A DNA stretch of 64,000 nucleotides from Tenacibaculum piscium (GTDB lineage Bacteria > Bacteroidota > Bacteroidia > Flavobacteriales > Flavobacteriaceae). The notes under the pieces are model-generated. The model saw nothing but the letters and a program-made list of their open reading frames with translations, had not been told where the DNA came from and made no database searches. This document shows, piece by piece, positions 6,001 through 64,000 of this stretch. The stretch's first letter is position 1. Each line of letters begins with the position of its first letter. Position numbers and translations under genes: made by a program. The stretch spans positions 62,296 to 126,295 of the forward strand of contig NZ_JAJGWT010000007.1 of assembly GCF_021390715.1 (NCBI RefSeq), given 5' to 3'.

Positions 6001-9000
6001 AATAAATGTAACAGGCGGAAGTGGTGATTTCAGTTATTCAGTTGTTGATAAAAATGATGCGACTAACATAGTTGCAGTTATAAAAACAACAAATCCACCA
6101 ACTTTTAGCATCGCAGATGCAGGAACGTATATTCTGAAAATCACAGACAATAAAGCAGAAATTACCTGTAATTCAATTGAATCATCAGAGATTGTAGTTG
6201 GAGAACCGATAAAACCAGCTTTTGAACCAGAAGCAATTGTAAATAATATTTGTTTCGGAAGTTCTGATGGTGTTATTTATATTCCAAACGGAGCTAATCC
6301 TTTAACATATACGATAAATTCAAATCCAGTAATAGGTTTCAATTCAACAACAAATAAATTTGAAGGTTTATCAGCAGGAACTTATACTATTACAGGAAAA
6401 GGAACAAACGGCTGTACAACAACTAAAGATGTAACGATTATTCAAAAATCAGAAATTAAAATTAATCCTGATGATATTAAAGATAAAATAACCGTTACTG
6501 ATTTTACTTGTACAACAGGAAATACAACAAATACCGCTTCTGTAAAAATTGATAAAGAAGCAATTCTTGGTGGAATTGTAGGAACAACAAAACCTAACTT
6601 TAATAGAGTCGTTTTTGTGTACGATAACGGAACAACAGATACTGCAGACGATATCAAACAAGATTCAGAAAGTTTTGATTTCTTTATTTATGATGAAAAT
6701 AACAATACATCAGGCGGAAAAGTTGCAATTACCATTTATGATGCACAAAATTGTTCGTCAGCAAAAACAACAATTATTAAAACAATAAAAGGTTTTGAGA
6801 AAATAACAGATGCAACAATTACACAAACTCAAAAATTAGATTGTAGCAATAAAGAAACAATTACGGTAAAAGCAAATCTTGATATTGCAAATTTAAAATA
6901 TACCATAATAGGAACTGATAAAACATCAAACTATACTGATGAAAAAACAATTCCTTTAGGAACAGATTCTGCAATATTTACTGGTTTAAAACCTGATAAT
7001 TATATCATAAAAATTACAAACCCGATAACAGGTTGTGTGTATCCTACTTATAATACTGTAAAAGATGTACCATTATTTTTAGTGGAAATTGATAGTCAAA
7101 GAACTTGTTTTGACCAAGCAACAAGAAAAGAAACAGCATCGGCACCTTTAAATGTGAAAACTATAATTAGAGATGCTTTAGATGTTCCATATACAGGAAA
7201 TTATACTTATGAAGTTGTAGATGCTATAACAGAAAGTTCATTAACAGCTCCGATAACAGGAACAGGAATTGGCGGAACTCAAAATATAATTTCAGGTTTA
7301 GAGAAAGGAACTTATAAAGTGAAAATAATTATGACGGATTCTCCAGAATGTGAAGTTTTATCTGAAGAATTTAGTATAACATCGCAACCTGAATTAACTT
7401 TAGAGGAGAATAGTATTGTAAATCATATCAGTTGTAATTCTAGTGAAGGAAGTGTTATTTTAAAAGCCGATGGCGGTTGGGGTAATTATGAATATCAATT
7501 AGAAAAAACCAAAAATAATATAACAACAATAGAACAAGTCTTTGGTAAAAATTCTAAATTTGAGGAACTAGAAGAAGGAAGCTATACCGCAACGGTAAGA
7601 GATATCAATAATTGTGAAGCTACGCTTAGTTTTGTGTTAGTGAAAGGAATAAAATTAACTGCGGAAACTAAAGTAAATAAAAATGTTTGTGAAGGCGAAC
7701 AAAATGCGAGTATTGAAATTATAAACGTAACAGGCGGACAAATACAAGATGCTGGAGTAACCTATAGTTATATTTTAAAATATCCGACGGAATTAGGCGG
7801 ATTAGAAGTAGAACAATCGTCAAATATTTTTGATGGCTTATTAGCAGGAAATTATCAAGTAAGAGTTATTGATAATAAATATGGTTGTAACACGGGTAAT
7901 TTTAAAAATGTTAAAGTTACAATTGAAGATCCAATTAAAGTAGAAGCATCTGCAAATATTACAGCAGATATTACTTGTGATATTACAACAGCAAGCGTTG
8001 AGGTTACAGCAAAAGGCGGAAAAGCACCATACGAATTTAGTATCGATGGAATTACTTATAATCCATCTAATACATCAACAAGTACTATGTATGAATTTAC
8101 AGGGCTTACCGCAGGATTACAAACATTTTATGTAAGAGATGTTGAACAATGTGTAACAACGACAACCGCTACAATTGGAGCTTATGTGGCTTTAGATGCA
8201 ACTTTAAATGTAGTTTCAGGATTTATTACGTGTAAAGATGATAGTAATGGTGTGTTATCTGCGGATGTAACAGGTGGTTTTGGAACTTATGAATATCAAT
8301 TATTAAATGAAGCTGAAACTCCAATTACGGGAGATTGGCAAACATCAAATACTTTTGGAGGTTTAAATATCGGAACCTATAAAATAAAAGTAAAAAGTAC
8401 GAATAGATTTAGTGAAGTTTGTGAAACAATAACCACAAATAAACATACCATAAAAGAACCAACAGTTTTAATTCCTGATGCAAAGGTAACTCAACATGTA
8501 ACCTGTGCTGGAGGTGATACAGGAATTATTCAAGCATCGGCAACAGGTGGAAATGGACAATATGAATACAATATTTTCACGATTCCATCAAACCCTGAAT
8601 ATCCAGAGAATAAATTTATTCAAAATGGCGAGTTTACAAACTTACCTGCAGGAACATATTATATTATGGTAAAAGATGTCGTTGGTTGTATTTCACCAGA
8701 TACCGATAAAGCACCGATAAAAGTTGTTATTAAAGAACCAAATGGATTAACCATGAACTTAACAAAAGTTGTTGAACAAACCTGTATCAATGATGATACG
8801 CCAACAATTACAGTTGATGTTCAAGGAGGAACACAGCCATATTATATCAGTATTAACAATGTGGAATTACCGAATCCGTATTCTTTAAATGAAATTAAAT
8901 TAGGAGCATCCGAAGGAATTAAAGCTGGGGGAGTTTACTTAATAAGTGTTCGAGGAAAAGATAAAGGTTGTTCATCAGTAGCGTTGCCATCGGTTATAAA

Positions 9001-9748
9001 AATAGTAGAACCGATTGATTTACAATTAACAGTCGATTTTGAATATACTTGTGAATCAGGAAATATTATCAAAGCAATTGTTGATGATTTATATAAAGAT
9101 GCCGTAAGTTTTACGTTATTTAATGAATCGGGAATTGCCATAGCAACCAACACAACAGGAGAATTTATCGATATAGAAGCAGGTGATGGATATAGCGTAA
9201 CAGCAACGAATACGGCTTCTGGTTGTTCGGAAAGTTCTACGGATGTATTTGATATTCAAGATATCCGAGCTTTAGAAATGACCATTGATGATACGGAGAA
9301 AAATAAAATAATCGCTAATGTAGCTTTCGGTTTACCGCCATATAATTTTACGCTTGATGGCATAGATTATGGAACAGATAATGAGTTTACCTTGTTACAA
9401 ACCAAAGATTATGAAATTAAAGTAACCGATGCAAGAGGTTGTGAAGTAACTTTAACTGTAACAGGTGAATACATCACGATAACTGTGTTAAATTTATTTA
9501 CACCAGATGGCGATGGAATTAATGATTTCTGGTATCCATTAGAGGTGGAAGGTTACCATAAAATAAAAGTGTATATTTATGATAGATATGCTCGTAAAAT
9601 AGCAAATTACCAAGGACAAAACCAAGGTTGGGACGGAACGTATGATGGTAAACCATTACCAGCAGGAGATTATTGGTATACTATTTATTACAGTGAGTTA
9701 TCAGGAGAACAGAAGAAAATAATGGGTCATTTTACATTATATAGGTAA
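1..9748 (+). CDS. Giant SprB-like repeat adhesin with T9SS type B sorting domain (5' partial)
   Basis: The frame that starts at base 2 is open without a stop to the TAA at 9746-9748, so about 3,248 residues are visible and the true start lies to the left. The ATG at 2516 is an ordinary internal Met, because homologous repeat sequence continues on both sides of it. The protein is a chain of repeats of roughly 80-95 residues rich in Thr, Ile, Val and Asp. Each has a Cys near its start, a GG.G.Y.Y stretch, and ends like GTYTVSVTDANGC; this is the SprB repeat pattern. The last 90 residues (from about 9478) carry LFTPDGDGINDFW, YDRYARKI and GWDGTYDGKPLPAGDYWY, the gliding-motility type B C-terminal domain recognised by T9SS. 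The likely role is a surface adhesin carried by the gliding motor (family knowledge for SprB of Flavobacterium johnsoniae). The PorP/SprF gene follows by 77 nt. Very high confidence for family, moderate for a motility role. Confidence 0.93.
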   Translation, partial: TFNVHPDITFDIDNITVPDCNTINNSADNATATITVNTGSGDYQYSLDGVLPAVDITGTTVTFPTTLTPGNHTIKIIDKLNIACTLEKTFTVSEPIKPSFKANITKNNSCNGANGGEITVTSTEALTYTINPAVVGSFDNITNIFSALPPNTYTVTGTGTNGCTTEIKDIIITEFKAIKVPTPTVANGGITEFACTTGNTRNSAIVKVDKTAITEGSGTYTKAEFVFTPNGGGAVVTPPASSNFEFTTDNVLGGTVDITVYDDQGCKGKTSATIAAFTPIADLLAIPKTAITCSTNESIEVTFTGIATEIKVVDANGINYDSTPATATATASVFTNLPVGKYTITIKNDKGCELTTYHTVTAIPAYTILLSDKIDTSCINSSTGSIKFDVKDYVGNYDYTITGATLGTAITGTGTGTIPAGTPKEITGLKAGDYTVNITTGTINCTVTPIDFKIEDAPAVLSVEAEETSAVQCKDDANATITVTETKGGWGRYEYQLEDASGIVLGYDFTTNTTNKIFTGLSHGTYKVSVRDALGCIVPSNDIIITNPTEVKFTVTKDDTVCDVNIAGSITVDLKDAVSGLAGGKAPYTYTLTDDASTPNVKTVTITDTEYTFTGLSKANYTVSVKDANLCKGTGADIKIFDDIVFTLEETKKIDCSVSTDAVYNINVSGGSGNFTYEIKKGTDVKVKAGTTLSTSTTNPPTFKTSVAGDYTITITDTDAAPNCTITRDFTVQESVKPKFTATPSDKICNGTATGVITINELPKVGINSVTYVINNVANTFTATPVGTEFKNLPADDYIITATGDNGCTSTQNVTIGELDEVKIGLDAIDVAYSCTNPMAKITVDKDSISGGNLNKNYNVAFVFTPTSGTGKTQPASSNFTFTTDNTSGGKVKIIVSDDQGCSSAEEEVTIPAFAPIGDLKVTQKTPITCSVNESIEVTFTGTATEIKVEQIPTIGTGYSQTKTPVSPATSLTSPIEFTGLPVGNYTISVTDAVTNCVATTFHTVSKIPVYDVVLSDKKDIACFNGKGSIKIDVKDYTGNYNYEVVDSVTESSLNTSKTGTGTSGTSEEITGLEAGKYKVKITLIDSNDKNCSVNLSAEFEIIKPAIALSVTADVTTKISCTDEADGTITATATGGWKNYEYQLEDTSGTAITVKDALGADVIYDFANNGSNNIFKNLPEGTYKVSVKDALGCVFESAEVKVENPKKVEFTVSKDDTACDNKIGGEITVTGSGGTGTYTYTLTDDSNPVKVTTQTGVTGAYTFTNLPAAVYTVSVTDTNLCVGKENPTSINPITINPDIEFTLVETKKVDCSTSPNGEVTVTLKNWVNGISNYKVVDSNSNALNIGGNIINDVPSQIFTISIPTAETYTVIISEKGSTCGISNTITIAPKLEPIFKATPSDKICNGTETGVITITDEVFNGIKNVTYTISLNGGALTPAQETFDAATKTFSGLPVGTYTITGTGDNKCPTSKKDVKIEQLDKVTIGANAIQNVTYTCDVANPKATITVDKTDIKGGNGDVNKNYNVEFVYDNGTPTDNTDDVTQIASSTFTFTTYNVLGGTVEIKVTDDQGCDSDTKTVTIPAFTPILPSDIQISHTPTCEFEKQSVTVKLDNLDASIAPVIFIEITKLDGSILSKKLPRPQDGSGVVFDKLPLGDYEVSITHPITNCIITKTYTIKEPVYNVLSSSVENTTCVGSPTGSVVIDVQKGNAFTSAFYTGKYDYEVFNSIGNSLTPVKSGNVQPATGTTNPLTISGLKAGSYVVKITDIDNATACSFTSAVFKIEDAPDGKLEVTADISSEITCTNDNNATITATAIGGWGATLYQLEYAVTKTGTYTIVKSFETNKYNNRFTNLKEGFYIVKAKDSHGCSDAISDVKEIINPKPVTFETEMIANICSDTKPAIKVTAKGGSGTYIYILTDKDGNEIENIKKTSLTHTFENLSVNNNEDYTVSVNDVKGCIGTPETGSTAVVTIYPELQFYLTPDKLSCQSDGTTTESAVYKINVTGGSGDFSYSVVDKNDATNIVAVIKTTNPPTFSIADAGTYILKITDNKAEITCNSIESSEIVVGEPIKPAFEPEAIVNNICFGSSDGVIYIPNGANPLTYTINSNPVIGFNSTTNKFEGLSAGTYTITGKGTNGCTTTKDVTIIQKSEIKINPDDIKDKITVTDFTCTTGNTTNTASVKIDKEAILGGIVGTTKPNFNRVVFVYDNGTTDTADDIKQDSESFDFFIYDENNNTSGGKVAITIYDAQNCSSAKTTIIKTIKGFEKITDATITQTQKLDCSNKETITVKANLDIANLKYTIIGTDKTSNYTDEKTIPLGTDSAIFTGLKPDNYIIKITNPITGCVYPTYNTVKDVPLFLVEIDSQRTCFDQATRKETASAPLNVKTIIRDALDVPYTGNYTYEVVDAITESSLTAPITGTGIGGTQNIISGLEKGTYKVKIIMTDSPECEVLSEEFSITSQPELTLEENSIVNHISCNSSEGSVILKADGGWGNYEYQLEKTKNNITTIEQVFGKNSKFEELEEGSYTATVRDINNCEATLSFVLVKGIKLTAETKVNKNVCEGEQNASIEIINVTGGQIQDAGVTYSYILKYPTELGGLEVEQSSNIFDGLLAGNYQVRVIDNKYGCNTGNFKNVKVTIEDPIKVEASANITADITCDITTASVEVTAKGGKAPYEFSIDGITYNPSNTSTSTMYEFTGLTAGLQTFYVRDVEQCVTTTTATIGAYVALDATLNVVSGFITCKDDSNGVLSADVTGGFGTYEYQLLNEAETPITGDWQTSNTFGGLNIGTYKIKVKSTNRFSEVCETITTNKHTIKEPTVLIPDAKVTQHVTCAGGDTGIIQASATGGNGQYEYNIFTIPSNPEYPENKFIQNGEFTNLPAGTYYIMVKDVVGCISPDTDKAPIKVVIKEPNGLTMNLTKVVEQTCINDDTPTITVDVQGGTQPYYISINNVELPNPYSLNEIKLGASEGIKAGGVYLISVRGKDKGCSSVALPSVIKIVEPIDLQLTVDFEYTCESGNIIKAIVDDLYKDAVSFTLFNESGIAIATNTTGEFIDIEAGDGYSVTATNTASGCSESSTDVFDIQDIRALEMTIDDTEKNKIIANVAFGLPPYNFTLDGIDYGTDNEFTLLQTKDYEIKVTDARGCEVTLTVTGEYITITVLNLFTPDGDGINDFWYPLEVEGYHKIKVYIYDRYARKIANYQGQNQGWDGTYDGKPLPAGDYWYTIYYSELSGEQKKIMGHFTLYR
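2..7930 (+). repeat. Higher-order repeat of about 1.9-2.0 kb inside the adhesin gene
   Basis: Several SprB repeats are grouped in a larger unit that recurs about four times. An Asp-Asp-Gln-Gly-Cys block (gatgaccaagg) lies at 785, 2693 and 4703, with a diverged copy at 6740, giving spacings of 1,908, 2,010 and 2,037 nt. Other blocks keep the same spacing: the stretch beginning acttgttca at 875 and 2786, and ccttcagataaaatctgta at 2231 and 4196. Some matching stretches are nearly identical in DNA, which suggests duplication followed by homogenising recombination. The final part, after about 7930, does not follow the unit. Confidence 0.85.
973..994 (+). repeat. AGCAAC hexanucleotide microsatellite in the adhesin
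   Basis: About 3.7 perfect copies of AGCAAC encode an Ala-Thr run. Because the unit is six bases, slippage would add or remove two residues and keep the reading frame. Confidence 0.85.
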
Positions 9749-9825
9749 ATTGTAAACAGAATGTAAGATAAGTTTACAAGTAAAATAATAGGAAAATGAT
9801 AAGTAAGATGACAGGTAATTAAAGA

Positions 9826-10788
9826 ATGAGAAACAGCATGAAAAAAATAATTATAACAATATGTTTACTGATACTTAGTAGCGTAAAATTAGTGGCTCAA
9901 GAGATTAATTTACCTCAGTATATAACTCATATGGCGGATAATCCTTTTTTAATATCGCCAAGTTATGCGGGAATTGGAGCAGGTTTTCAGGTTCGATTAA
10001 ATGGCGTGAGTCAATGGGTTGGCGTTAAAGACACACCTGATACACAATCTTTAGTAGTAGAGGCACGTATTGCTGATAGATTTGGAGGAGGAATTACCGT
10101 TTTTAATGATAAAAATGGCTATACCAGTCAAAAAGGAGCAAAATTTTCGTTAGCAAGTCATTTAACGTTAAGCCAATTTCATGATAGTTTTTTATCCTTA
10201 GGAATGAGTTTTAAATTTGTTCAATTCGGAATTGATACTTCTGAAAATAATTCAGGACAAACTGTTGAAAATAGATCTTTAACAAGTTCAAATTTTGATG
10301 TAGGTTTGCTGTATCGTTACGAACGCTTTAGTTTTAGTGTAAATGCCAATAATATTTTAGATAAAAAAATAGAAAATTTTTCAACCAATGAGCCAGAAGG
10401 TTTAGGACGTTTTACATTGTATACATCTTATGTTTTAGCAAGAATTAGTAATATGATAGAGGTAGAACCGTCTCTTTTTGTAGAATATTATGCCGAAGAT
10501 GGGCGTTCAAGAACCGATTTAAACATCAAAGTTAGAAAAGGAATTGATAACGGATATATGTGGGCAGGATTGAGTTATACCTTTTTAAATGACCAATTTT
10601 TTGTGCCCAATGCGATTGCGCCATTGGTCGGAATTAAAAAAGATAATATTTATATGTCGTATGGTTTTAGCGTAAATTTAAACGAATTACAAGATTTTAA
10701 TTACGGAACTCACATGATAACACTCGGTTTAGATTACGACAGAAGACCAAGTTTAGCACGTTGTACACAGGATATGATTATCTTTTAA
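9826..10788 (+). CDS. PorP/SprF family type IX secretion outer-membrane protein
   Basis: This is a 320-residue protein with a signal peptide (about residues 1-24, ending LVAQ) and the family opening QYITHMADNPFLISPSYAGIG. The rest is made of alternating amphipathic strands typical of an outer-membrane beta barrel. PorP/SprF proteins pair with large type B sorting-domain adhesins; SprF is needed for surface delivery of SprB in Flavobacterium johnsoniae (family knowledge). It lies 77 nt after the adhesin, in the same direction and before a terminator, so the two probably form one transcription unit. The start is ATG 9826 or ATG 9838; the latter gives the more typical MKKIII signal-peptide start. 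Confident on family and pairing; the exact partner is inferred from position. Confidence 0.9.
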   Translation: MRNSMKKIIITICLLILSSVKLVAQEINLPQYITHMADNPFLISPSYAGIGAGFQVRLNGVSQWVGVKDTPDTQSLVVEARIADRFGGGITVFNDKNGYTSQKGAKFSLASHLTLSQFHDSFLSLGMSFKFVQFGIDTSENNSGQTVENRSLTSSNFDVGLLYRYERFSFSVNANNILDKKIENFSTNEPEGLGRFTLYTSYVLARISNMIEVEPSLFVEYYAEDGRSRTDLNIKVRKGIDNGYMWAGLSYTFLNDQFFVPNAIAPLVGIKKDNIYMSYGFSVNLNELQDFNYGTHMITLGLDYDRRPSLARCTQDMIIF

Positions 10789-56814: not shown

Positions 56815-57393
56815 TTATATATCTTTTTTCGATCCACTTACTATACTTGAAATAATTCCTTTTTGGTCAGTAAATTCTGCTATTAGTACACCAGCCAAAT
56901 GTATTATAATAAAAGCGATCAGGTAGTAAATACTTAATACGTGTATTTCTTCCATTGACTTTTTAAATTCTTTTGGTCCTAATTCTATAATAAGTCCGGT
57001 AACAAGCGAAACAATCACACATAAATAAAATATAATGTATATCCATTTTTGAAACTTTATTTTTGTAGATAGGGTTTTATCAAGAGGATTTTGAATCTTC
57101 ATATGTCCGAATGTAGGAAGTATCAAACGAATACTAAATAGTCCTACCAAAACATAACCAATGTAAATATGCCAATTCCACATTGGTTGTCTTATCTTTT
57201 TTGCTAAATTAATGAGTTGTTCTTCAGATAGAAACTGGTCTGTACCACTCAGGTAATCCTTTATTATCGCTGCCATATTATATTTATTCATCCACGTTAA
57301 TCGTAAAAAAATTGTAATTAATAATAGCATAAATGAAACAGCAATTGTCCAATGAATTATTCGATATACTTTAGAATACTTTGTGTTTTCCAT
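56815..57393 (-). CDS. Cytochrome b561/b-type diheme membrane protein
   Basis: 192 residues with four transmembrane helices. Heme ligands would be the His residues in YRIIHWTIAVSFMLLL, WNWHIYIGYVLVGLFSIRL, EIHVLSIYYLIAFIIIHLAGV. The pattern matches the cytochrome b/b6 (Ni,Fe-hydrogenase b-type) superfamily. It should move electrons across the inner membrane; the partner is unknown. The gene is flanked by two of the boundary sequences, so it looks like a one-gene mobile cassette. Confidence 0.87.
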   Translation of the reverse strand: MENTKYSKVYRIIHWTIAVSFMLLLITIFLRLTWMNKYNMAAIIKDYLSGTDQFLSEEQLINLAKKIRQPMWNWHIYIGYVLVGLFSIRLILPTFGHMKIQNPLDKTLSTKIKFQKWIYIIFYLCVIVSLVTGLIIELGPKEFKKSMEEIHVLSIYYLIAFIIIHLAGVLIAEFTDQKGIISSIVSGSKKDI

Positions 57394-57411
57394 AATTTAT
57401 TTTCCCATAAT

Positions 57412-57431
57412 GATTATGCTTTATGAAGCAT
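57412..57431. repeat. Inverted repeat ttatgcttt/atgaagcataa
   Basis: A 20-nt near-palindrome (ttatgctttatgaagcataa) lies between the cytochrome gene start and boundary copy 2. It may be a terminator-like structure or a protein site; no T run follows. Confidence 0.45.
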
Positions 57432-57482
57432 AACAGCGTTGTTTTATATTATTTGTTGCGGATTTCAAGTTCTAAATATAGT
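57432..57482 (-). repeat. Cassette-like boundary sequence, copy 2 (right half type)
   Basis: The forward-strand segment 57435-57467 matches 59434-59466 at 27 of 33 bases without gaps, both containing atttgttgcg. It lies upstream of the cytochrome b gene. Confidence 0.55.
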
Positions 57483-57581
57483 ATATAAAAACAGGATAAA
57501 ATCCCTTTAAATTCTACAAAGAATATTTTTCTAATTTGTGGATATTCTTCAGATTTTTATTAATTATCTAAATTTAAAAAA

Positions 57582-57809
57582 TTAAATTGCTTCATTAACT
57601 GGTTCTGTTACTGGTTCTTGAAAATCACAAGGTACTTCTTGGAAACTATCTATAAAAGGCGATTCATTTCCATTTGGATTATTAGGATTATAATTAGGGT
57701 TTGATACGGGAAGGTTTACGCTTTTAGTACAATCGTCTTCACAACTGAAAAATAGAGTTAGAGTAATTGTTAAAATTAAAATTTTATTTATAGTTTTTAT
57801 TAATTTCAT
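57582..57809 (-). CDS. Small hypothetical lipoprotein
   Basis: 75 residues. A clear lipoprotein signal ends FFSC (Cys23), then EDDCTKSV and a low-complexity Asn/Pro stretch (NPNYNPNNPNGNESPF). A CDFQEPVTEPVNEAI tail follows. No family is recognised. It is downstream of the peroxiredoxin gene on the same strand, and could be part of that unit. Confidence 0.6.
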   Translation of the reverse strand: MKLIKTINKILILTITLTLFFSCEDDCTKSVNLPVSNPNYNPNNPNGNESPFIDSFQEVPCDFQEPVTEPVNEAI

Positions 57810-57861
57810 TTTATTCTTTTTGAATTTAGTTTTCTATTTCAAAACAAAACTTGTTTTTGTG

Positions 57862-57879
57862 TTTTAGAGCCTGTTTAAA
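57862..57879 (+). repeat. Second copy of ttttagagcctgtttaaa
   Basis: Identical to 43988-44005 in the same orientation. Such gagcctgtttaaa sequences resemble insertion-sequence ends, but no transposase is near either copy. Confidence 0.4.
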
Positions 57880-57888
57880 AATTTGGTT

Positions 57889-58665
57889 TTAATTTAATTT
57901 TTTCAAAAATTTAGTGATTTCACTTGGTTCGGCACGGTTTCTATAATCGACATCTAAAAACGCATATTCAATTTTACCATCTGTATTAATAATATAAGTT
58001 GCAGCTAATGGTAATTCATTGCTTGTATCTCCGTTATGTGAATTTAAATTAAATTTTTCATTATATTTTTTTGCTACATCTTTGGTGAGTTTAAATACCA
58101 CACCATATTCTTTTGCAATTTTATTATGAATATCACTTAATACTTCAAATTCTAAATCGTGTTTTTCAGATGTATTTATTGATTCATCAGGTAATTCTGG
58201 AGTTAAAGCCAATAGATTTGCTCCTTCTGCTTTAAAATTAGGTAACTCTTCTTGTAAATGATGTAGTGTAAGGTTACAATAAGGGCACCAACCACCTCTA
58301 TACCATATTAGTACAACAGGACCCTTATCTAAATAGCTTTTTAAAGAAACAGTTTCACCAAGGGCATTTTTAAGTTTGAAATCGGGAGCTATATCTCCAA
58401 TATTTTTAGCAGATTCCAATATACCACTATTAATTACTGCATCTAAACCTTCTTTATACTTTTTTTTAGTTGTAGAATCTACTTGTTTATTAAAATTAAC
58501 TTTACGTAGTTCGAGTTCTGCAGCTAAAGTAGGTTTTTGTTCTGTTTTCATTTTTGGATTGTTTAATGAAGTTGTAGTGTTTTTTTTATCTGAATTGTTT
58601 TTACAGCCTATGATTAGTAAAACAATTGTACCTATTATTAAAAGTGGTTTTATATTCATCATCAT
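57889..58665 (-). CDS. Peroxiredoxin-like lipoprotein (AhpC/TSA domain)
   Basis: 258 residues. A lipoprotein signal ends IIGC (Cys21). The thioredoxin-fold domain runs from about residue 85: IGDIAPDFKLKNALGETVSL, then VLIWYRGGWCPYCNLTLHHLQ with a CxxC active site, and PLAATYIINTDGKIEYAF. It probably reduces peroxides in the periplasm. It follows a TetR regulator gene by 76 nt on the same strand, a pair likely co-transcribed and controlled by that regulator. Confidence 0.87.
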   Translation of the reverse strand: MMMNIKPLLIIGTIVLLIIGCKNNSDKKNTTTSLNNPKMKTEQKPTLAAELELRKVNFNKQVDSTTKKKYKEGLDAVINSGILESAKNIGDIAPDFKLKNALGETVSLKSYLDKGPVVLIWYRGGWCPYCNLTLHHLQEELPNFKAEGANLLALTPELPDESINTSEKHDLEFEVLSDIHNKIAKEYGVVFKLTKDVAKKYNEKFNLNSHNGDTSNELPLAATYIINTDGKIEYAFLDVDYRNRAEPSEITKFLKKLN

Positions 58666-58741
58666 TTATTATTTAAGTGTTATTTTTTTTATATATAGAA
58701 GAATTTATCATAAATAAATTGATTACTGAGAAAATAATTTT

Positions 58742-59305
58742 TTATAATTTTTTAAATATTTGGTTTAAATAATTATTCAGTTGTTTTGGGCTAAAAACTT
58801 TCGTTGCAGCTGAAAACCCAAATTTTGAGATTAACAAATAATCTGCTTTAGCCTCAATTTCTGCTTCTTTAAAGCATTTTTCTTCTCTTAATTTATCAGC
58901 AAAAATATTTTTCAATTTTGTAGTGTTGGCTGCTAGTAGGTTTTTGATTTTAGGTACATCACTATTTTTTAGTTCGGTAGCAGTATTTCCTATAAAACAT
59001 CCCTTAAAGTCTTTATTTTCTTTAGAAAATTCTAATGAATCTATAAAGTACTGTTTTATGGCTTCTATTCCGGTATTGCTGTTTATCATTTTGTGGAATA
59101 AACTATCTAGCTTTCTTCTATAACAGATGATACTTGCTTCTAATAAACCTTCTTTGCTACCAAAACTTGAATATATAGAAAACTTATTAATACCCATTTC
59201 TTTTTCAAGCATTTGCATTGAAGTAATTTCATAACCATTCCGCCAAAAAAGGTTCATTGCTTTTTCTGTCACCAAATCTTCGTTATATTCTTTTTTTCTC
59301 GGCAT
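58742..59305 (-). CDS. TetR/AcrR family transcriptional regulator
   Basis: 187 residues. The N-terminal DNA-binding domain reads YNEDLVTEKAMNLFWRNGYEITSMQMLEKEMGINKFSIYSSFGSKEGLL, the classical TetR helix-turn-helix. The C-terminal ligand domain contains KGCFIGNTATELKNSD, as in regulators that respond to reactive electrophiles or peroxides via Cys. A palindrome at 59326-59345, just before the start, is a likely self-operator. It probably controls the peroxiredoxin gene downstream. Confidence 0.9.
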   Translation of the reverse strand: MPRKKEYNEDLVTEKAMNLFWRNGYEITSMQMLEKEMGINKFSIYSSFGSKEGLLEASIICYRRKLDSLFHKMINSNTGIEAIKQYFIDSLEFSKENKDFKGCFIGNTATELKNSDVPKIKNLLAANTTKLKNIFADKLREEKCFKEAEIEAKADYLLISKFGFSAATKVFSPKQLNNYLNQIFKKL

Positions 59306-59430: not shown

Positions 59431-59508
59431 TATAGCGATTTTGTATATGATTTGTTGCGTATTTTAAGGAATTAATCGCTATTGGTGAATTATATATGGT
59501 GTTGTGTG
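59431..59508 (-). repeat. Cassette-like boundary sequence, copy 1 (full)
   Basis: Contains both halves: acacaacaccatata at the end of the DUF1275 gene, which supplies its last codons and stop, and the atttgttgcg segment shared with copy 2. Confidence 0.55.
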
Positions 59509-60248
59509 TCGTTTTTTTTTCTTTGTTTATATTTTCTTTTTGTTCGGATTAATTTATATCTCAAATCGTTGTAAAATAAACTTGTCGATAAAATTATTGC
59601 TCCAAAAATTAGAGTGTTCAATTTCAAGTTAAGCCTTGAGTAGAGAAATCCAGCGATTATTCCACCAAGAAAGAAGGAGCAAATGATATAAATTCGTAGT
59701 TTTATAGTCGCTTTTATTTTTTCTCTATTCGGATGATATTTAGGAAATAATAGTTGCGATAGTTCAATTCCTAAATCGGTGAACAGTCCTGTCAGGTGTG
59801 TTGTTCTTACAACTGCATTTGAAATTTTTGTTACAAAAGAGTTTTGAAGTCCCATTGCAAAAAGTAGTAGACAAACAATTATATTAGGGTATTTTAATTC
59901 TCCTATATTACTTATTATTGAAATTGATACTAAAATGAAACATTCAATGATGGTTGGTAAAACAAAACCATTAAGTTTTTCACTTTCCTTAAATTTTTCG
60001 ATTAGGAAGCTTGATAAAAAAGAACCAAATAGAAATGAAAAAATATAAAGAAAATAAACTGTTCCTTTCCATAATTCGAAATTTGCAACGTCACTAATAA
60101 AAAGAGCAAAATGACCAGTTACATTGGTTGTCAGTTGTTTGAAAGCTAAAAATCCTGTAATATTCACAATTCCAGCAACAAAAGACAAAATCGTAGCAAT
60201 TCTAAAGTTTTGTTTTAAAGTTCTACTTTTACCTTGATGTCTAAACAT
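59490..60248 (-). CDS. YoaK/DUF1275 family membrane protein
   Basis: 252 residues with six or so membrane helices. DUF1275 hallmarks: ATILSFVAGIVNITGFLAFKQLTTNVTGHFALF, then LLLFAMGLQNSFVTKISNAVVRTTHLTGLFTDLG. The last five residues (DTQHHI) are encoded by the boundary element, so the 3' end may have been replaced. Function unknown; family members are thought to be small-molecule transporters. It lies 140 nt after the arsenic island. Confidence 0.87.
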   Translation of the reverse strand: MFRHQGKSRTLKQNFRIATILSFVAGIVNITGFLAFKQLTTNVTGHFALFISDVANFELWKGTVYFLYIFSFLFGSFLSSFLIEKFKESEKLNGFVLPTIIECFILVSISIISNIGELKYPNIIVCLLLFAMGLQNSFVTKISNAVVRTTHLTGLFTDLGIELSQLLFPKYHPNREKIKATIKLRIYIICSFFLGGIIAGFLYSRLNLKLNTLIFGAIILSTSLFYNDLRYKLIRTKRKYKQRKKNDTQHHI

Positions 60249-60388: not shown

Positions 60389-61099
60389 CTATTCTAATAT
60401 TCCCGTGAAAATTGAAATATAATACAATCCAGTCAAAATAAAAACAACACCTGCAATTGTTCGCATTATTTTTTCAATTTTCGTAATTCTGTTGTAGAAT
60501 ACACCGACCTTTCCTGCTGTAAAAGCCAATAAATAAGTAAAAAGAATTACAGGTAATCCTGTTCCAAATGCGAATACAATGGGTAAATAGAGTCCGTTAG
60601 CTGATGCAATTGTCATAGGAATTAACATTCCAAAAAACAATGCTGCACTGTAAGGGCAAAATGCCAAAGCAAAAACAATACCTATCAAAAAAGAACCTAA
60701 AAGTCCTTTGTCTTTAAATTTTTCAGATAGTTTTTCTTGAAAATTTAATTCTCCTAAAAAATTTAGTTTGATAATACCTAGCATAATCAACCCAATGATT
60801 ATCAATAATGGTCCTAAATATTTCTCTCCATTTTGATTTAAAAATCGAGCTATATGAAATTTACTTGCACCAAAATATAGTATCAAACCAATTACAGTAT
60901 AACTAAATCCTCTACCCAAAGAATATAGCAATCCACTTAAAAATACTTTTCGTTTACTCGAAATGTTTTTAGAAATAAAAGCTGTTGCAGTTATGTTGGT
61001 CGCCAAAGGACACGGGCTAATAGCTGTCATTAGTCCGAGTATCAATGCTGATAAAATAGGAATATTATAATCCTCTAAAAGTGATTGCAAAAAATCCAT
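60389..61099 (-). CDS. arsG: ArsG-like organoarsenical efflux permease (DsbD/CcdA-like)
   Basis: 236 residues with about six helices. It belongs to the DsbD/CcdA-like transporter group: LGLMTAISPCPLATNITATAFIS and IGIVFALAFCPYSAALFFGMLIP contain the paired Cys-Pro motifs. ArsG of the Bacteroides ArsEFG module removes trivalent aromatic arsenicals. Immediately downstream of the ArsF-like gene (1-nt junction), which supports the call. Alternative: a general thiol transporter. Confidence 0.75.
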   Translation of the reverse strand: MDFLQSLLEDYNIPILSALILGLMTAISPCPLATNITATAFISKNISSKRKVFLSGLLYSLGRGFSYTVIGLILYFGASKFHIARFLNQNGEKYLGPLLIIIGLIMLGIIKLNFLGELNFQEKLSEKFKDKGLLGSFLIGIVFALAFCPYSAALFFGMLIPMTIASANGLYLPIVFAFGTGLPVILFTYLLAFTAGKVGVFYNRITKIEKIMRTIAGVVFILTGLYYISIFTGILE

Positions 61100-61540
61100 T
61101 TAGAGCATTTTTAATTCTGCATTTATTTTGTCTTTCAATTCTTTAGAAAAAGCTTCTTGGTCATTCCCGTTCATAAAAGCAAAATCCGTTAGATTTATTT
61201 GAGTTTCTTTTCCGTTTTTAATTACGTTTAAGATTAAAGAAGTTCCTGATGCCTCAAATTTTTCGGCAATCTTTTCATTCTTCTTTTCATCTACATTGAT
61301 AACCAGAAACGTAATCTTATTTTCTTTAAGTTCCTTTGCAAAATAAGTATTCAACGTGTATTTAGTGTTGGCTTCAATCGCATTGCAAGTCATACATCTA
61401 TGAGTGGAATGAAAATCTAAAACTTCTATTTTTGAAACGGATTTATCTAATGAAGTTGTTTTGTTTTTATCTTGACCATTGCAAGATGTAAGTATTAATC
61501 CGATTGCTAAAACTGTAAAAAAATTGATTATTTTATTCAT
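61100..61540 (-). CDS. arsF: ArsF-like lipoprotein with thioredoxin motif
   Basis: 146 residues. A lipoprotein signal ends LTSC (Cys20). The domain has a thiol motif HRCMTCNAIEANTKY (CxxC at about residues 49-52) and a thioredoxin-like layout (ITFLVINVDEKKNEKIAEKFEASGTSLILNV). This matches the ArsF component of nitro-aromatic arsenical reduction/efflux modules. It abuts the ArsG-like gene directly. It would sit in the periplasm and relay electrons. The assignment rests on context plus CxxC and is moderate. Confidence 0.72.
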   Translation of the reverse strand: MNKIINFFTVLAIGLILTSCNGQDKNKTTSLDKSVSKIEVLDFHSTHRCMTCNAIEANTKYTLNTYFAKELKENKITFLVINVDEKKNEKIAEKFEASGTSLILNVIKNGKETQINLTDFAFMNGNDQEAFSKELKDKINAELKML

Positions 61541-61559
61541 TTTTCTTTGATTTTATGTT

Positions 61560-62543
61560 TTATAATATGATGTTGAATAAATATCCTGAAATGATAATGC
61601 AAAGTGTAACAACTCCAAAAAAGATAGCAATTAGCTTTAGAGTCATTACTTTTTTTAATAACATAGCTTCTGGTAATGAAAGTCCAACAACTCCCATCAT
61701 AAAAGCGATTGCAGTTCCTAATGGAATTCCTTTGGCAACTAATACCTGAACTACAGGAAGTATGCCTGATGCGTTTGAATACATTGGTACTGCTAAAATC
61801 GTAGCAATAGGAACAGCAAAAAGATTGTCTTTGTCCATATATTTCTCAAAAAATCCTTCTGGAATATAACCGTGCATAAGTCCACCAATAGCTATGCCTA
61901 CAATTACATAAGGAATGATTCCTTTAAGAATTCTTATTACTTCTTCCCAAATAATTGATAAGCGTTTTTTAAAGGGTTGTTTTTCTTCTTGAAATATATT
62001 TTGTTCTCTTTGAGCGTTTTCTAAAACTTCTTTTACCCAAGGTGTTAAATAGGATTCTAATTTTAATTTTTGAAGAATTACACCAGAAATAGTTCCTAAC
62101 AAAACACCACTAATCACATAAATTATGGTTGTTTTAATTCCAAACAAGCCAATAAAAAGTCCTATTGCAACTTCATTAACCAATGGCGAAGTAATCAAAA
62201 ATGAAAAGGTTACACCTAACGGGATTCCACCTCTAACAAAACCAATAAATAACGGAACTGAAGAACAAGAGCAAAAAGGTGTTACCACACCAAAAAGACT
62301 TGCCATTAAGTATTCCAAACCGTATAATTTATTTCTTGACAAATAGTTTTTAACCTTGTCTATGGGAAAGTAGCTGTTAATGATTCCCATAAAAAAGATA
62401 ACAACAAAAAGTAAAATTAGAATCTTTGTGGTGTCATAAATAAAGAAATTTAAAGCTTCTGCTAAATGTTGCCCTTTTTCTAAATTTAGAACGCTATAAA
62501 CAAACCAATCTGCTATATTTTGTATCCAATCAAACATTTTCAA
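61560..62543 (-). CDS. ArsP-like permease (DUF318 family)
   Basis: 327 residues with eight or so helices. The DUF318/permease signature is present: LASLFGVVTPFCSCSSVPLFIGFVRGGIPLGVTFSFLI, including the CSCSS cysteines, and AVPMYSNASGILPVVQVLV. ArsP proteins of this family export trivalent organoarsenicals. It starts within the end of the OsmC gene (14-nt overlap) and precedes the ArsF-like gene by 19 nt. The family also includes non-arsenic permeases, so the substrate is inferred from location. Confidence 0.85.
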   Translation of the reverse strand: MKMFDWIQNIADWFVYSVLNLEKGQHLAEALNFFIYDTTKILILLFVVIFFMGIINSYFPIDKVKNYLSRNKLYGLEYLMASLFGVVTPFCSCSSVPLFIGFVRGGIPLGVTFSFLITSPLVNEVAIGLFIGLFGIKTTIIYVISGVLLGTISGVILQKLKLESYLTPWVKEVLENAQREQNIFQEEKQPFKKRLSIIWEEVIRILKGIIPYVIVGIAIGGLMHGYIPEGFFEKYMDKDNLFAVPIATILAVPMYSNASGILPVVQVLVAKGIPLGTAIAFMMGVVGLSLPEAMLLKKVMTLKLIAIFFGVVTLCIIISGYLFNIIL

Positions 62544-62937
62544 TTGTATTAATAGTACCAGAAATTGAACAAGACAATTTTACGGTATTGTAAATAGTGC
62601 CAAACTTTTCAATATTCTTTTTAAGTAAATCAGGGTTCAATTTTTTATCGTTGCTGTAAATTGTCAAATTGTAAACGATATTTTCCATTCTTGGCGGATT
62701 TTCAAGACGTGTTGCATTGACTTCAATGTTCGCTTTTGAATAGGTAAATTTCATCATAGCCGAAAAACGTTCCACATTTTTCAGTATACAGGAAGCAAAA
62801 GAACCTAAGAATAATTCGGCAGGATTTGGTAAGGTTTCAGCAGATTTTGAAGTTGTGCCAAAATCTATATTCGTTTGTTTTATATGAACAATTGCATCCT
62901 GATTTGAAGTAGATGAGGCTTTGATATGGTAATTCAT
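62530..62937 (-). CDS. OsmC family peroxiredoxin
   Basis: 135 residues. The OsmC/Ohr core is visible: NPAELFLGSFASCILKNVERF with Cys50, and VKLSCSISGTI with Cys123, the pair that reduces organic peroxides. It lies between the ArsE-like redox protein and the ArsP-like permease, overlapping the latter by 14 nt, so it belongs to the same transcript. It may protect against oxidative stress from arsenic; this is inferred. Confidence 0.86.
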   Translation of the reverse strand: MNYHIKASSTSNQDAIVHIKQTNIDFGTTSKSAETLPNPAELFLGSFASCILKNVERFSAMMKFTYSKANIEVNATRLENPPRMENIVYNLTIYSNDKKLNPDLLKKNIEKFGTIYNTVKLSCSISGTINTIENV

Positions 62938-62949
62938 AGTTGAGGTGAA

Positions 62950-63186
62950 TTAGTTTAAAAGAGCCAATACTTCGTCTTTTGAAGGCACTCTACCTTTTAT
63001 TGTAATCACATCATCTATTACCAAAACTGGTGTTGTCATTACGTTAAATTTCATAATTTCCATTATATCCTCAATTTTTTCAATAGTTGCATCTATATTG
63101 TTTGCTGAAACTACATCTTTAACTACATCAGTCATTGATTGGCATTTTGGACATCCTGTCCCTAAAATTTTGATTACTTTAGTCAT
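62950..63186 (-). CDS. arsE: ArsE-like small thioredoxin-fold protein
   Basis: 78 residues. It is a TM0996-type redox-active disulfide protein: VIKILGTGCPKCQSMTDVV with Cys12 and Cys15 and a central FNVMTTPVLVIDDVI cis-Pro region. It lies 51 nt downstream of arsR. ArsE in the Bacteroides ArsEFG system is a protein of this type. Other members occur in many operons, so the ArsE name is based on context. Confidence 0.8.
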   Translation of the reverse strand: MTKVIKILGTGCPKCQSMTDVVKDVVSANNIDATIEKIEDIMEIMKFNVMTTPVLVIDDVITIKGRVPSKDEVLALLN

Positions 63187-63237
63187 AATACTTGTATTTG
63201 TTTATCGTCAATAAACGATAGATTAGTTAAAAAAATA

Positions 63238-63543
63238 TCAATTAAAAAATTGCTGAAATAATGTTTTTGCAATTTTCCAGTTTTCTTGATTGATACAGTA
63301 CTTTATTTTTGGCGGTTTTAATTCTCCTTGAATTAAACCAGCCTTTTTTAATTCTTTTAAATGTTGTGAAACTGTTGATTGAGAAATCGGTAATACGTCA
63401 ACTAAATCTCCAGTAAAACAACACGATCGATTTTCAAGATGTTTTAAAATAGCAATACGTGTAGGATGTGCTAAAGCTTTAGCAAATTTTGCCAATGTTT
63501 CGGTATCTTGCTTATATTCTATATGTTCTAAACTTCTTTTCAT
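63238..63543 (-). CDS. arsR: ArsR/SmtB family metalloregulator
   Basis: 101 residues from ATG 63543. The winged helix includes LAKALAHPTRIAILKHL, SCCFTGDLVDVLPISQSTVSQHLKELKKAGLI. The pair Cys41-Cys42 at the start of helix 3 probably forms part of an arsenite site. The upstream GTG (63555) overlaps the promoter box TAGATTTG, so ATG 63543 is preferred. It should repress the operon and release on arsenite. An inverted repeat lies 37 nt upstream. Confidence 0.9.
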   Translation of the reverse strand: MKRSLEHIEYKQDTETLAKFAKALAHPTRIAILKHLENRSCCFTGDLVDVLPISQSTVSQHLKELKKAGLIQGELKPPKIKYCINQENWKIAKTLFQQFFN

Positions 63544-63554
63544 ATTATTTACCA

Positions 63555-63562
63555 CAAATCTA
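63555..63562 (-). promoter_or_regulatory. Promoter -7 box TAGATTTG of arsR
   Basis: This minus-strand TAnnTTTG box ends 12 nt before the preferred ATG and lies inside the longer reading frame that would begin with GTG. Confidence 0.55.
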
Positions 63563-63579
63563 AGATAGATATTTAAAAT

Positions 63580-63603
63580 GAAATGTGATAAAAGTCACAT
63601 TTC
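63580..63603. promoter_or_regulatory. Putative ArsR operator (inverted repeat)
   Basis: Arms gaaatgtga (63580-63588) and tcacatttc (63595-63603) with a 6-nt centre lie just upstream of the arsR promoter box and after the ACR3 stop. No T run, so an operator is more likely than a terminator. Confidence 0.58.
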
Positions 63604-63612
63604 ACTTATTTT

Positions 63613-64000
63613 TTATAAATAGTATTTTTTCTTCAACCAAAAGGAAACTCGAACCAATAAAATCAATGCAGGAACTTCAACTAATGGACCAATAACTCCT
63701 GCAAATGCTTGACCAGAATTCAATCCGAAAACTGCAATTGCAACTGCAATCGCTAACTCAAAATTATTCCCCGTTGCTGTAAATGCTACTGAAGCTGTTT
63801 TGTCATATTCTGCTCCTGATGCTTTGGTTAAGAAAAAACCAATTATAAACATTACAATAAAATAAATAAGTAAAGGAACAGCAATAATCAAAACATCCAT
63901 TGGTATTTCCACAATCAATTCTCCTTTTAGTGAAAACATAATTATAATTGTAAATAAAAGTGCAAGTAAGGTTATTGGTGAAATTGTCGGAATAAATTTA
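63613..64000 (-). CDS. acr3: ACR3-type arsenite efflux permease (partial, start beyond window)
   Basis: The frame is open to the right edge and contains about 128 residues of the C-terminal half. Upstream of the internal Met at 63939 it reads [20 protein letters not shown], followed by [21 protein letters not shown], then [21 protein letters not shown] and a final helix [20 protein letters not shown]. These are typical of ACR3 (bile-acid/arsenite permease). It exports arsenite using the membrane potential. It is first in the island on the minus strand. Confidence 0.9.

Follow-up and report, generated by a model that had tools for sequence, protein, structure and literature searches.

CcdA and DsbD form thiol-disulfide relays with TlpA or CcmG. 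A triad of CcdA, thioredoxin and redox-disulfide-2 proteins has been described in ars operons, seven of eight of which contained arsC; electrons for ArsC were proposed and a transmembrane flow was doubted (Castillo and Saier, 2010). Another set of arsenic proteins, the ArsEFG of Chen, Zhang and Rosen 2019, has a published reading that assigns the reduction of nitroaromatic arsenicals (roxarsone, nitarsone) to ArsE and ArsF together and the export of the resulting aromatic aminoarsenicals to ArsG. Genes for all three proteins lie near the end of a stretch of 64,000 nucleotides from the flavobacterium Tenacibaculum piscium (RefSeq assembly GCF_021390715.1, contig NZ_JAJGWT010000007.1, positions 62,296 to 126,295), referred to below as the window. 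ArsEFG is probably a diverged version of the triad of Castillo and Saier, and thus a transmembrane thiol relay rather than a nitroreductase and a pump, because ArsE and ArsF are thioredoxin-like, ArsG is a member of the DsbD/CcdA family, their cysteines are invariant and partners are replaced in other loci. The full reading, in which the arsenic genes form two units and the second combines an ArsR-controlled permease with a dithiol relay running from ArsE through ArsG to ArsF in arsenic defence, is given a probability of about 0.55. The island itself is ordinary; it is the reinterpretation of ArsEFG that is of interest.

Features of the two units, in window positions:
60389–61099, minus strand: arsG, encoding a membrane protein of 236 amino acids, DsbD/CcdA type (NF040495, PF13386, PF02683)
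61100–61540, minus strand: arsF, 146 amino acids, lipoprotein-like, predicted thioredoxin fold with an RCMTC motif and without cis-proline (NF040494)
61560–62543, minus strand: permease gene of family PF03773 (ArsP_1), with a TPFCSCSSVP motif
62530–62937, minus strand: osmC-like gene, 135 amino acids (PF02566)
62950–63186, minus strand: arsE, 78 amino acids, thioredoxin-like (MTH895 type), with a GCPKC motif (TIGR00412)
63238–63543 (or to 63555), minus strand: arsR2, repressor gene (NF033788)
63555–63562, minus strand: TAnnTTTG promoter element of arsR2, TAGATTTG, of the Bacteroidota -7 type
63579–63604, no strand assigned: perfect inverted repeat, TGAAATGTGA and TCACATTTCA separated by 6 bases, a candidate ArsR operator or ACR3 terminator
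63613–64000, minus strand: 3' part of ACR3, which belongs to the upstream arsR1-arsC-ACR3 unit and continues past the window

The ArsE, ArsF and ArsG proteins

The preliminary description of this DNA named seven consecutive genes on the minus strand from 60389 to 64000, and these were borne out by the open reading frames and by profiles for ArsG, ArsF, ArsE, the permease, OsmC, ArsR and ACR3; the profile searches, which it had named as a possible refutation, left the named families in place, with cut-offs exceeded. ArsE, ArsF and ArsG, all encoded in the same direction, each score above the cut-off of a curated family (TIGR00412, 107 bits with a cut-off of 62; NF040494, 117.5 with 60; NF040495, 309.7 with 200) and in this respect resemble the ArsEFG of 2019. 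They may differ from it in arrangement, arsE being split here from arsF-arsG by osmC and the permease gene and the unit lying beside ACR3, and ArsG is read here as CcdA-like and there as a pump.

ArsG matches two Pfam domains, DsbD_2 (PF13386; 76.5 bits, cut-off 24.9, 3.3e-21) and DsbD_TM (PF02683; 43.8 bits, cut-off 27.1, 2.4e-11). Conservation was counted after aligning each protein of the window with its relatives at the loci of set 1 (the best 80 of 130 ArsG relatives from one scan of a species-genome collection), with the window row included and short fragments excluded. The only two cysteines of ArsG, C30 (SPCP) and C148 (FCPY), each fall in a hydrophobic segment in a simple hydropathy scan, and both are kept in 80/80 rows and, when a wider set is taken, in 99/99 rows, of which 91 are distinct. 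The DsbD_TM/DsbD_2 domain, the two presumed membrane cysteines and a putative outside partner with a predicted thioredoxin fold are features shared with CcdA/DsbD and TlpA or CcmG; unlike those systems, no haem or isomerase partner was seen at the arsEFG unit.

The AlphaFold2 model of ArsF (mean predicted local distance difference test score, pLDDT, 85.7) predicts a thioredoxin fold, and its best matches are thioredoxins (Foldseek E 1.1e-4; VIA Z up to 11.4, with a root mean square deviation of 1.8 over 87 residues). The CxxC cysteines of ArsF (C49, C52) are present in 78/78 rows and the lipobox cysteine C20 in 75/78. ArsE matches the structure of MTH895 (PDB 1ilo) with an E-value of 2.6e-11, and its C12 and C15 are kept in 69/69 rows.

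Neither ArsE nor ArsF has a Pfam match to a flavin or nitroreductase domain, a result that speaks against the published reading, as does the membership of ArsG in the DsbD/CcdA family. Moreover, 55 of the 57 well-flanked loci of set 1 (those with 7.9 kb or more upstream of ArsG) already contain a separate PF03773 permease, and synthetic aromatic arsenicals would hardly be old as a selection pressure. Nitroreduction followed by efflux therefore seems unlikely here, even though ArsG and ArsF pass the cut-offs of the NCBIfam models so named, and the introduction of PMC9144182, which has Chen, Zhang and Rosen 2019 in its reference list, counts ArsG among the demonstrated efflux transporters and has ArsE and ArsF confer resistance to organic arsenicals.

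A sister triad with a CcdA-like protein

ArsE (TIGR00412) is far commoner than ArsG, with matches above cut-off in 133 of 395 Bacteroidota genomes. Sixty regions around such matches, one per genome, were chosen by hand to spread over genera (set 2, which shares at least one genome with set 1, as L026 and L154 look by their length like a single contig); the ArsE frame was labelled in 57 of them, and L168, L194 and L211 were dropped. These 57 loci contain the permease (47), ACR3 (36), ArsC (35), a secreted thioredoxin (28), a CcdA-like protein (27), ArsM (14), ArsF (10) and ArsG (7). All seven ArsG loci have ArsF and all 27 loci with the CcdA-like protein have the secreted thioredoxin; ArsE, the thioredoxin and the CcdA-like protein are consecutive in 20 loci. 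ArsG and the CcdA-like protein never occur together (0/57 versus 3.3 expected, P 0.0077), and no CcdA-like protein was found near ArsG in the 80 loci of set 1. In the ArsE tree, two changes account for the label "beside ArsG" or "beside CcdA-like" over the 48 labelled rows; this tree has 71 rows and few columns, with 15 hand-picked set 1 rows, window included, and with L202 excluded for want of the motif.

In the two pairs tested with Pfam, the CcdA-like protein is a DsbD_TM protein and its partner a Thioredoxin_2 protein. HHalign aligned ArsG with the CcdA-like family over 208 columns (98.4%, E 4e-15), first cysteine on first cysteine, and ArsF with the secreted thioredoxin, CxxC on CxxC (93.8%, E 2e-7), versus 0.2% for the mismatched control of ArsF with the CcdA-like protein; the E-values are those of single comparisons of shallow profiles. 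ArsEFG shares with the triad of Castillo and Saier (2010) a small thioredoxin of the MTH895 type, a second thioredoxin and a membrane protein of the CcdA type, and differs from it in the lack of cis-proline in ArsF and in a second ArsG cysteine shifted by two residues. The relay model is based on protein families, gene order, invariant cysteines, the predicted fold of ArsF, the homology of ArsG with the CcdA-like protein and the mutual exclusion of these two membrane proteins.

A number of results weigh against this model. The cis-proline of thioredoxins is missing from ArsF, in which no proline occurs at positions 94–106 in any of 99 rows (91 distinct), and the second ArsG cysteine lies two residues off the CcdA position (FCPY versus GPC). 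Both proteins therefore depart from the canonical pattern, and the ArsF-ArsG couple may not work like an ordinary disulfide reductase. Beside ArsG, the secreted thioredoxin occurs in 13/80 loci of set 1 by profile (9/80 by clustering) and in 1/7 of set 2, so that replacement is confined to the membrane proteins. Neither couple is present in 23/57 loci of set 2, and three of the ten ArsF loci lack ArsG, two of them having the CcdA couple. ArsE with the permease also occurs without any relay, which makes the relay an add-on. Taxonomy, which the labels on the ArsE tree follow in part, may account for some of the mutual exclusion and of the pattern in that tree. The match of the ArsG profile to CcdA in the PDB (5vkv) spans almost the full length at an E-value of just 0.25; the AlphaFold2 model of ArsG is poor (pLDDT 61.8) and too weak to use, and with it Foldseek and VIA-align gave no clear fold match, CcdA not being among the matches listed, an absence to which no weight is given. 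ACR3 is near only 14 of the 57 well-flanked units of set 1. Finally, Chen, Zhang and Rosen are said to have assigned nitroreduction and efflux to ArsEFG in 2019.

The cis-proline of thioredoxins keeps metals off the active site, and MerP and MerT of mercury systems are a model for the hand-off of a metal from cysteine to cysteine. It could accordingly be proposed that ArsE, ArsG and ArsF move a trivalent arsenical, and not electrons, from the cytoplasm to the outside by thiol exchange. The invariant cysteine pairs of all three proteins, the absence of cis-proline from ArsF and the displaced second cysteine of ArsG fit such a hand-off, which would also square ArsG with a transport phenotype. 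It is nevertheless quite unlikely, given that the sister protein has the canonical CcdA cysteines (C37 and C149, 27/27) and its thioredoxin has both CxxC and the proline (P101, 28/28), a pattern that favours electron transfer. Electron transfer is the default reading because the sister couple has these canonical motifs. A broader proposal, in which ArsE-ArsG-ArsF is an arsenic-specialised cysteine relay, built as an electron conduit of the CcdA type, that carries either trivalent arsenicals or arsenical-directed electrons outward across the membrane, and in which ArsF lost its cis-proline and the second cysteine of ArsG moved, is put forward tentatively, as a single joint claim that is possible and somewhat doubtful.

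For the thiol relay favoured here, what OsmC does, which way electrons flow, the topology, the control by ArsR2 and the arsenical nature of the substrate are all inferred. In the first unit, arsenate would be reduced and arsenite pumped out. The second unit would be an ArsR-controlled operon built on the PF03773 permease and the transmembrane dithiol relay: cytoplasmic ArsE (GCPKC) would give reducing equivalents to ArsG, which, as a protein of the CcdA/DsbD type whose two cysteines lie in separate membrane segments, would hand them to ArsF, a putative thioredoxin-fold lipoprotein (RCMTC) outside the inner membrane. The target of ArsF may be a thiol-reactive arsenical, or periplasmic thiols damaged by arsenicals exiting through ACR3 or the permease, and OsmC might serve in cytosolic thiol or peroxide clean-up.

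The two units, the promoter motif and the permease

The arsenic genes are two adjacent units, arsR1-arsC-ACR3 and then arsR2-arsE-osmC-permease-arsF-arsG, the latter with its own promoter motif. A single operon under one ArsR, as the preliminary description had it, was rejected because a second ArsR gene, arsR1, lies upstream and TAnnTTTG precedes arsR2. The window is part of a contig of 135,351 bp, on which genes past the window end were read (positions 7909–10141 of region L006): the rest of ACR3, an arsC-like gene and arsR1. The ACR3 piece inside the window is 128 amino acids long, and the entire gene passes the TIGR00832 equivalog cut-off (441 bits, cut-off 282.8). The arsC-like gene scores 35.5 bits with the thioredoxin-type ArsC model, under its cut-off of 174.3, and has weak PDB matches to ArsC. 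arsR2 begins 69 bases past ACR3; in the list of open reading frames, the osmC frame runs into that of the permease and arsF directly adjoins arsG, an arrangement consistent with a single transcript.

TAnnTTTG, which we take to be the -7 promoter element of Bacteroidota, was found upstream of arsR2 in 48 of 67 relatives, versus a mean of 4.8 and a maximum of 13 in mononucleotide shuffles, and 32 of 51 occurrences in these upstream regions fall within three positions. The motif in the window overlaps the GTG start of the arsR2 frame (63555), so that translation probably starts instead at the ATG at 63543. Upstream of arsR2, 21/67 relatives have inverted repeats whose arms are 8 bases or longer, versus 7.5% of shuffles (repeat types TGTGA, 11/67, and ATCGTA, 14/67); the perfect repeat upstream of the promoter motif in the window is therefore a candidate ArsR operator, which could alternatively terminate ACR3. 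The arsR2 product scores 67.8 bits with NF033788 (cut-off 55), and its cysteines C45, C46 and C87 are kept in 69/69, 68/69 and 68/69 rows; it also matches, below cut-off, the sulfur regulators BigR and TsoR, among others.

The permease scores 234.5 bits with PF03773 (cut-off 32.3), and a genome-wide profile search found no second match to this family and no ArsM above the NF008823 cut-off. C91 and C93 (CSC) and the TPF-CSC motif are present in all 69 aligned permeases, and C315 in 56/69. According to section 12 of PMC4435449, ArsP splits into two clusters, TPF-CSC being the mark of cluster 2; that section leaves the cluster of Campylobacter jejuni ArsP unstated. The window permease shares its family and the C(S/T)C motif with ArsP, the methylarsenite efflux permease, and differs in having TPF before CSC. 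Its top NCBIfam match is the efflux transporter SaoE (NF040736), the cut-off of which (325) it misses with 129.8 bits. The suggestion in the preliminary description that the locus points to exposure to organoarsenicals loses ground, since the permease has the cluster 2 motif and a thiol relay fits ArsEFG at least as well as the published reading does, on account of the cysteine pattern, the homology and the replacement of partners. The OsmC-like protein (PF02566, 37.8 bits, cut-off 27.5) has C50 in 30/30 rows and C123 in 27/30; to call it a peroxide enzyme would be a family-level guess.

Occurrence, neighbouring genes and meaning

Neighbours in set 1, many contigs of which end early, were labelled through phmmer searches with the proteins of the window and through clustering. 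The 80 loci contain ArsF (77), the permease (73), ArsE (68), ArsR2 (68), OsmC (34), ACR3 (20), ArsC (18), an FmdE-like lipoprotein (16), rhodanese (10) and ArsM (8); the counts for the 57 well-flanked loci are ArsF 56, permease 55, ArsE 55, ArsR2 55, OsmC 31, ACR3 14 and ArsC 13. These counts make arsR2-arsE-(osmC)-permease-arsF-arsG a conserved block with ACR3 as an optional neighbour, and the second unit recurs across Bacteroidota, mostly without ACR3 nearby. The search for the same order elsewhere, proposed at the outset, recovered this block repeatedly, with ACR3 nearby in a minority of loci. Inorganic and ArsEFG-type modules do occur together in this genome, as first described, but a permease joined to ArsEFG is the rule and no special trait, and OsmC, which had been called unusual inside the operon, is present in more than half of the well-flanked loci. 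A Prevotella plasmid has a different order, arsR-arsF-arsG-arsE-permease-arsC-ACR3.

It could be argued that the second unit deals mainly with sulfur or thiol stress, its targets being sulfane sulfur, sulfite and thiols, and that it only sometimes lies beside arsenic genes. The scarcity of ACR3 near well-flanked units is consistent with this, as are the resemblance of ArsR2 to BigR and TsoR and the presence of OsmC alone (31) or rhodanese alone (4) between ArsE and the permease in the 65 loci counted. OsmC and rhodanese do not behave as significant alternatives (Fisher P 0.23). A sulfur operon is nonetheless quite unlikely, because ACR3 and ArsC are frequent in the ArsE loci of set 2 (36/57 and 35/57), ArsR2 retains the C45-C46 pair and C87, and arsR2 starts 69 bases past ACR3 in the window.

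ArsG scores above its cut-off in 9 of the 395 Bacteroidota genomes, where no score falls between 264 and 66 bits, in 13 of 299 of a family sample and in 10 of 97 of a genus sample, the T. piscium genome being counted in each. Base composition lends no support to a recent foreign island, the unit and the whole window both having a G+C of 0.301. In the ArsG tree, the Flavobacteriaceae label needs 12 changes, only three of which are forced by starred branches (7 of the 77 inner branches are starred), and it is more clustered than in 500/500 shuffles; movement between lineages is possible and weakly supported.

The FmdE-domain lipoprotein (L016, L022, L061, L070, L080 and others) lies mostly between the permease gene and arsF, and goes with the rhodanese gene (Fisher P 0.00016, 57 loci). 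Rhodanese, a DUF6428 protein and ArsM carry cysteine-rich C-terminal tails ending in CC in L070, L072 and L081, and these are perhaps metalloid-binding. Two human-gut records labelled bacteriophage (L121, MT836000; L122, MT836950) carry arsF, arsG, the permease gene and arsE, with arsG and the permease gene in pieces in L122; they appear to be mobile DNA of bacteria and not genes of a phage. In Bacillota, two distant ArsG relatives (L119 and L120, about 30% identity) lie directly downstream of a gene annotated CopC, which suggests a copper role for their branch.

In the window, a gene for a DUF1275 membrane protein (59490–60248) lies directly downstream of arsG; its only labelled relative among the 80 loci, a close one, is directly upstream of arsR2 in another Tenacibaculum locus (L044). 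A further redox cluster close to the arsenic genes, on the minus strand at 56815–59305, consists of genes for cytochrome b561, for a TetR regulator and for an AhpC/TSA peroxiredoxin that is lipoprotein-like and has a WCPYC motif. Upstream of the arsenic genes is an IS3-type transposase pair, named by eye from its translations (L006 13938–15191, about 69642–70895 in window coordinates).

No link between ArsEFG and the CcdA triad was found in the open-access literature searched, in which no search was aimed at both together. In NCBIfam, ArsG bears the name of an aromatic arsenical efflux permease and ArsF that of a nitroreductase subunit, and genome annotation follows these names. If the arsenic-specialised relay existed, ArsG would be wrongly described as a stand-alone efflux permease, and the ars triads of 2010 and 2019 would be one family. 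If ArsEFG is a thiol relay, these annotations, including the exposure to organoarsenicals read from them, would be unsafe, and the unit would draw attention to a periplasmic aspect of arsenic defence, one that has received little study and that recurs in Bacteroidota.

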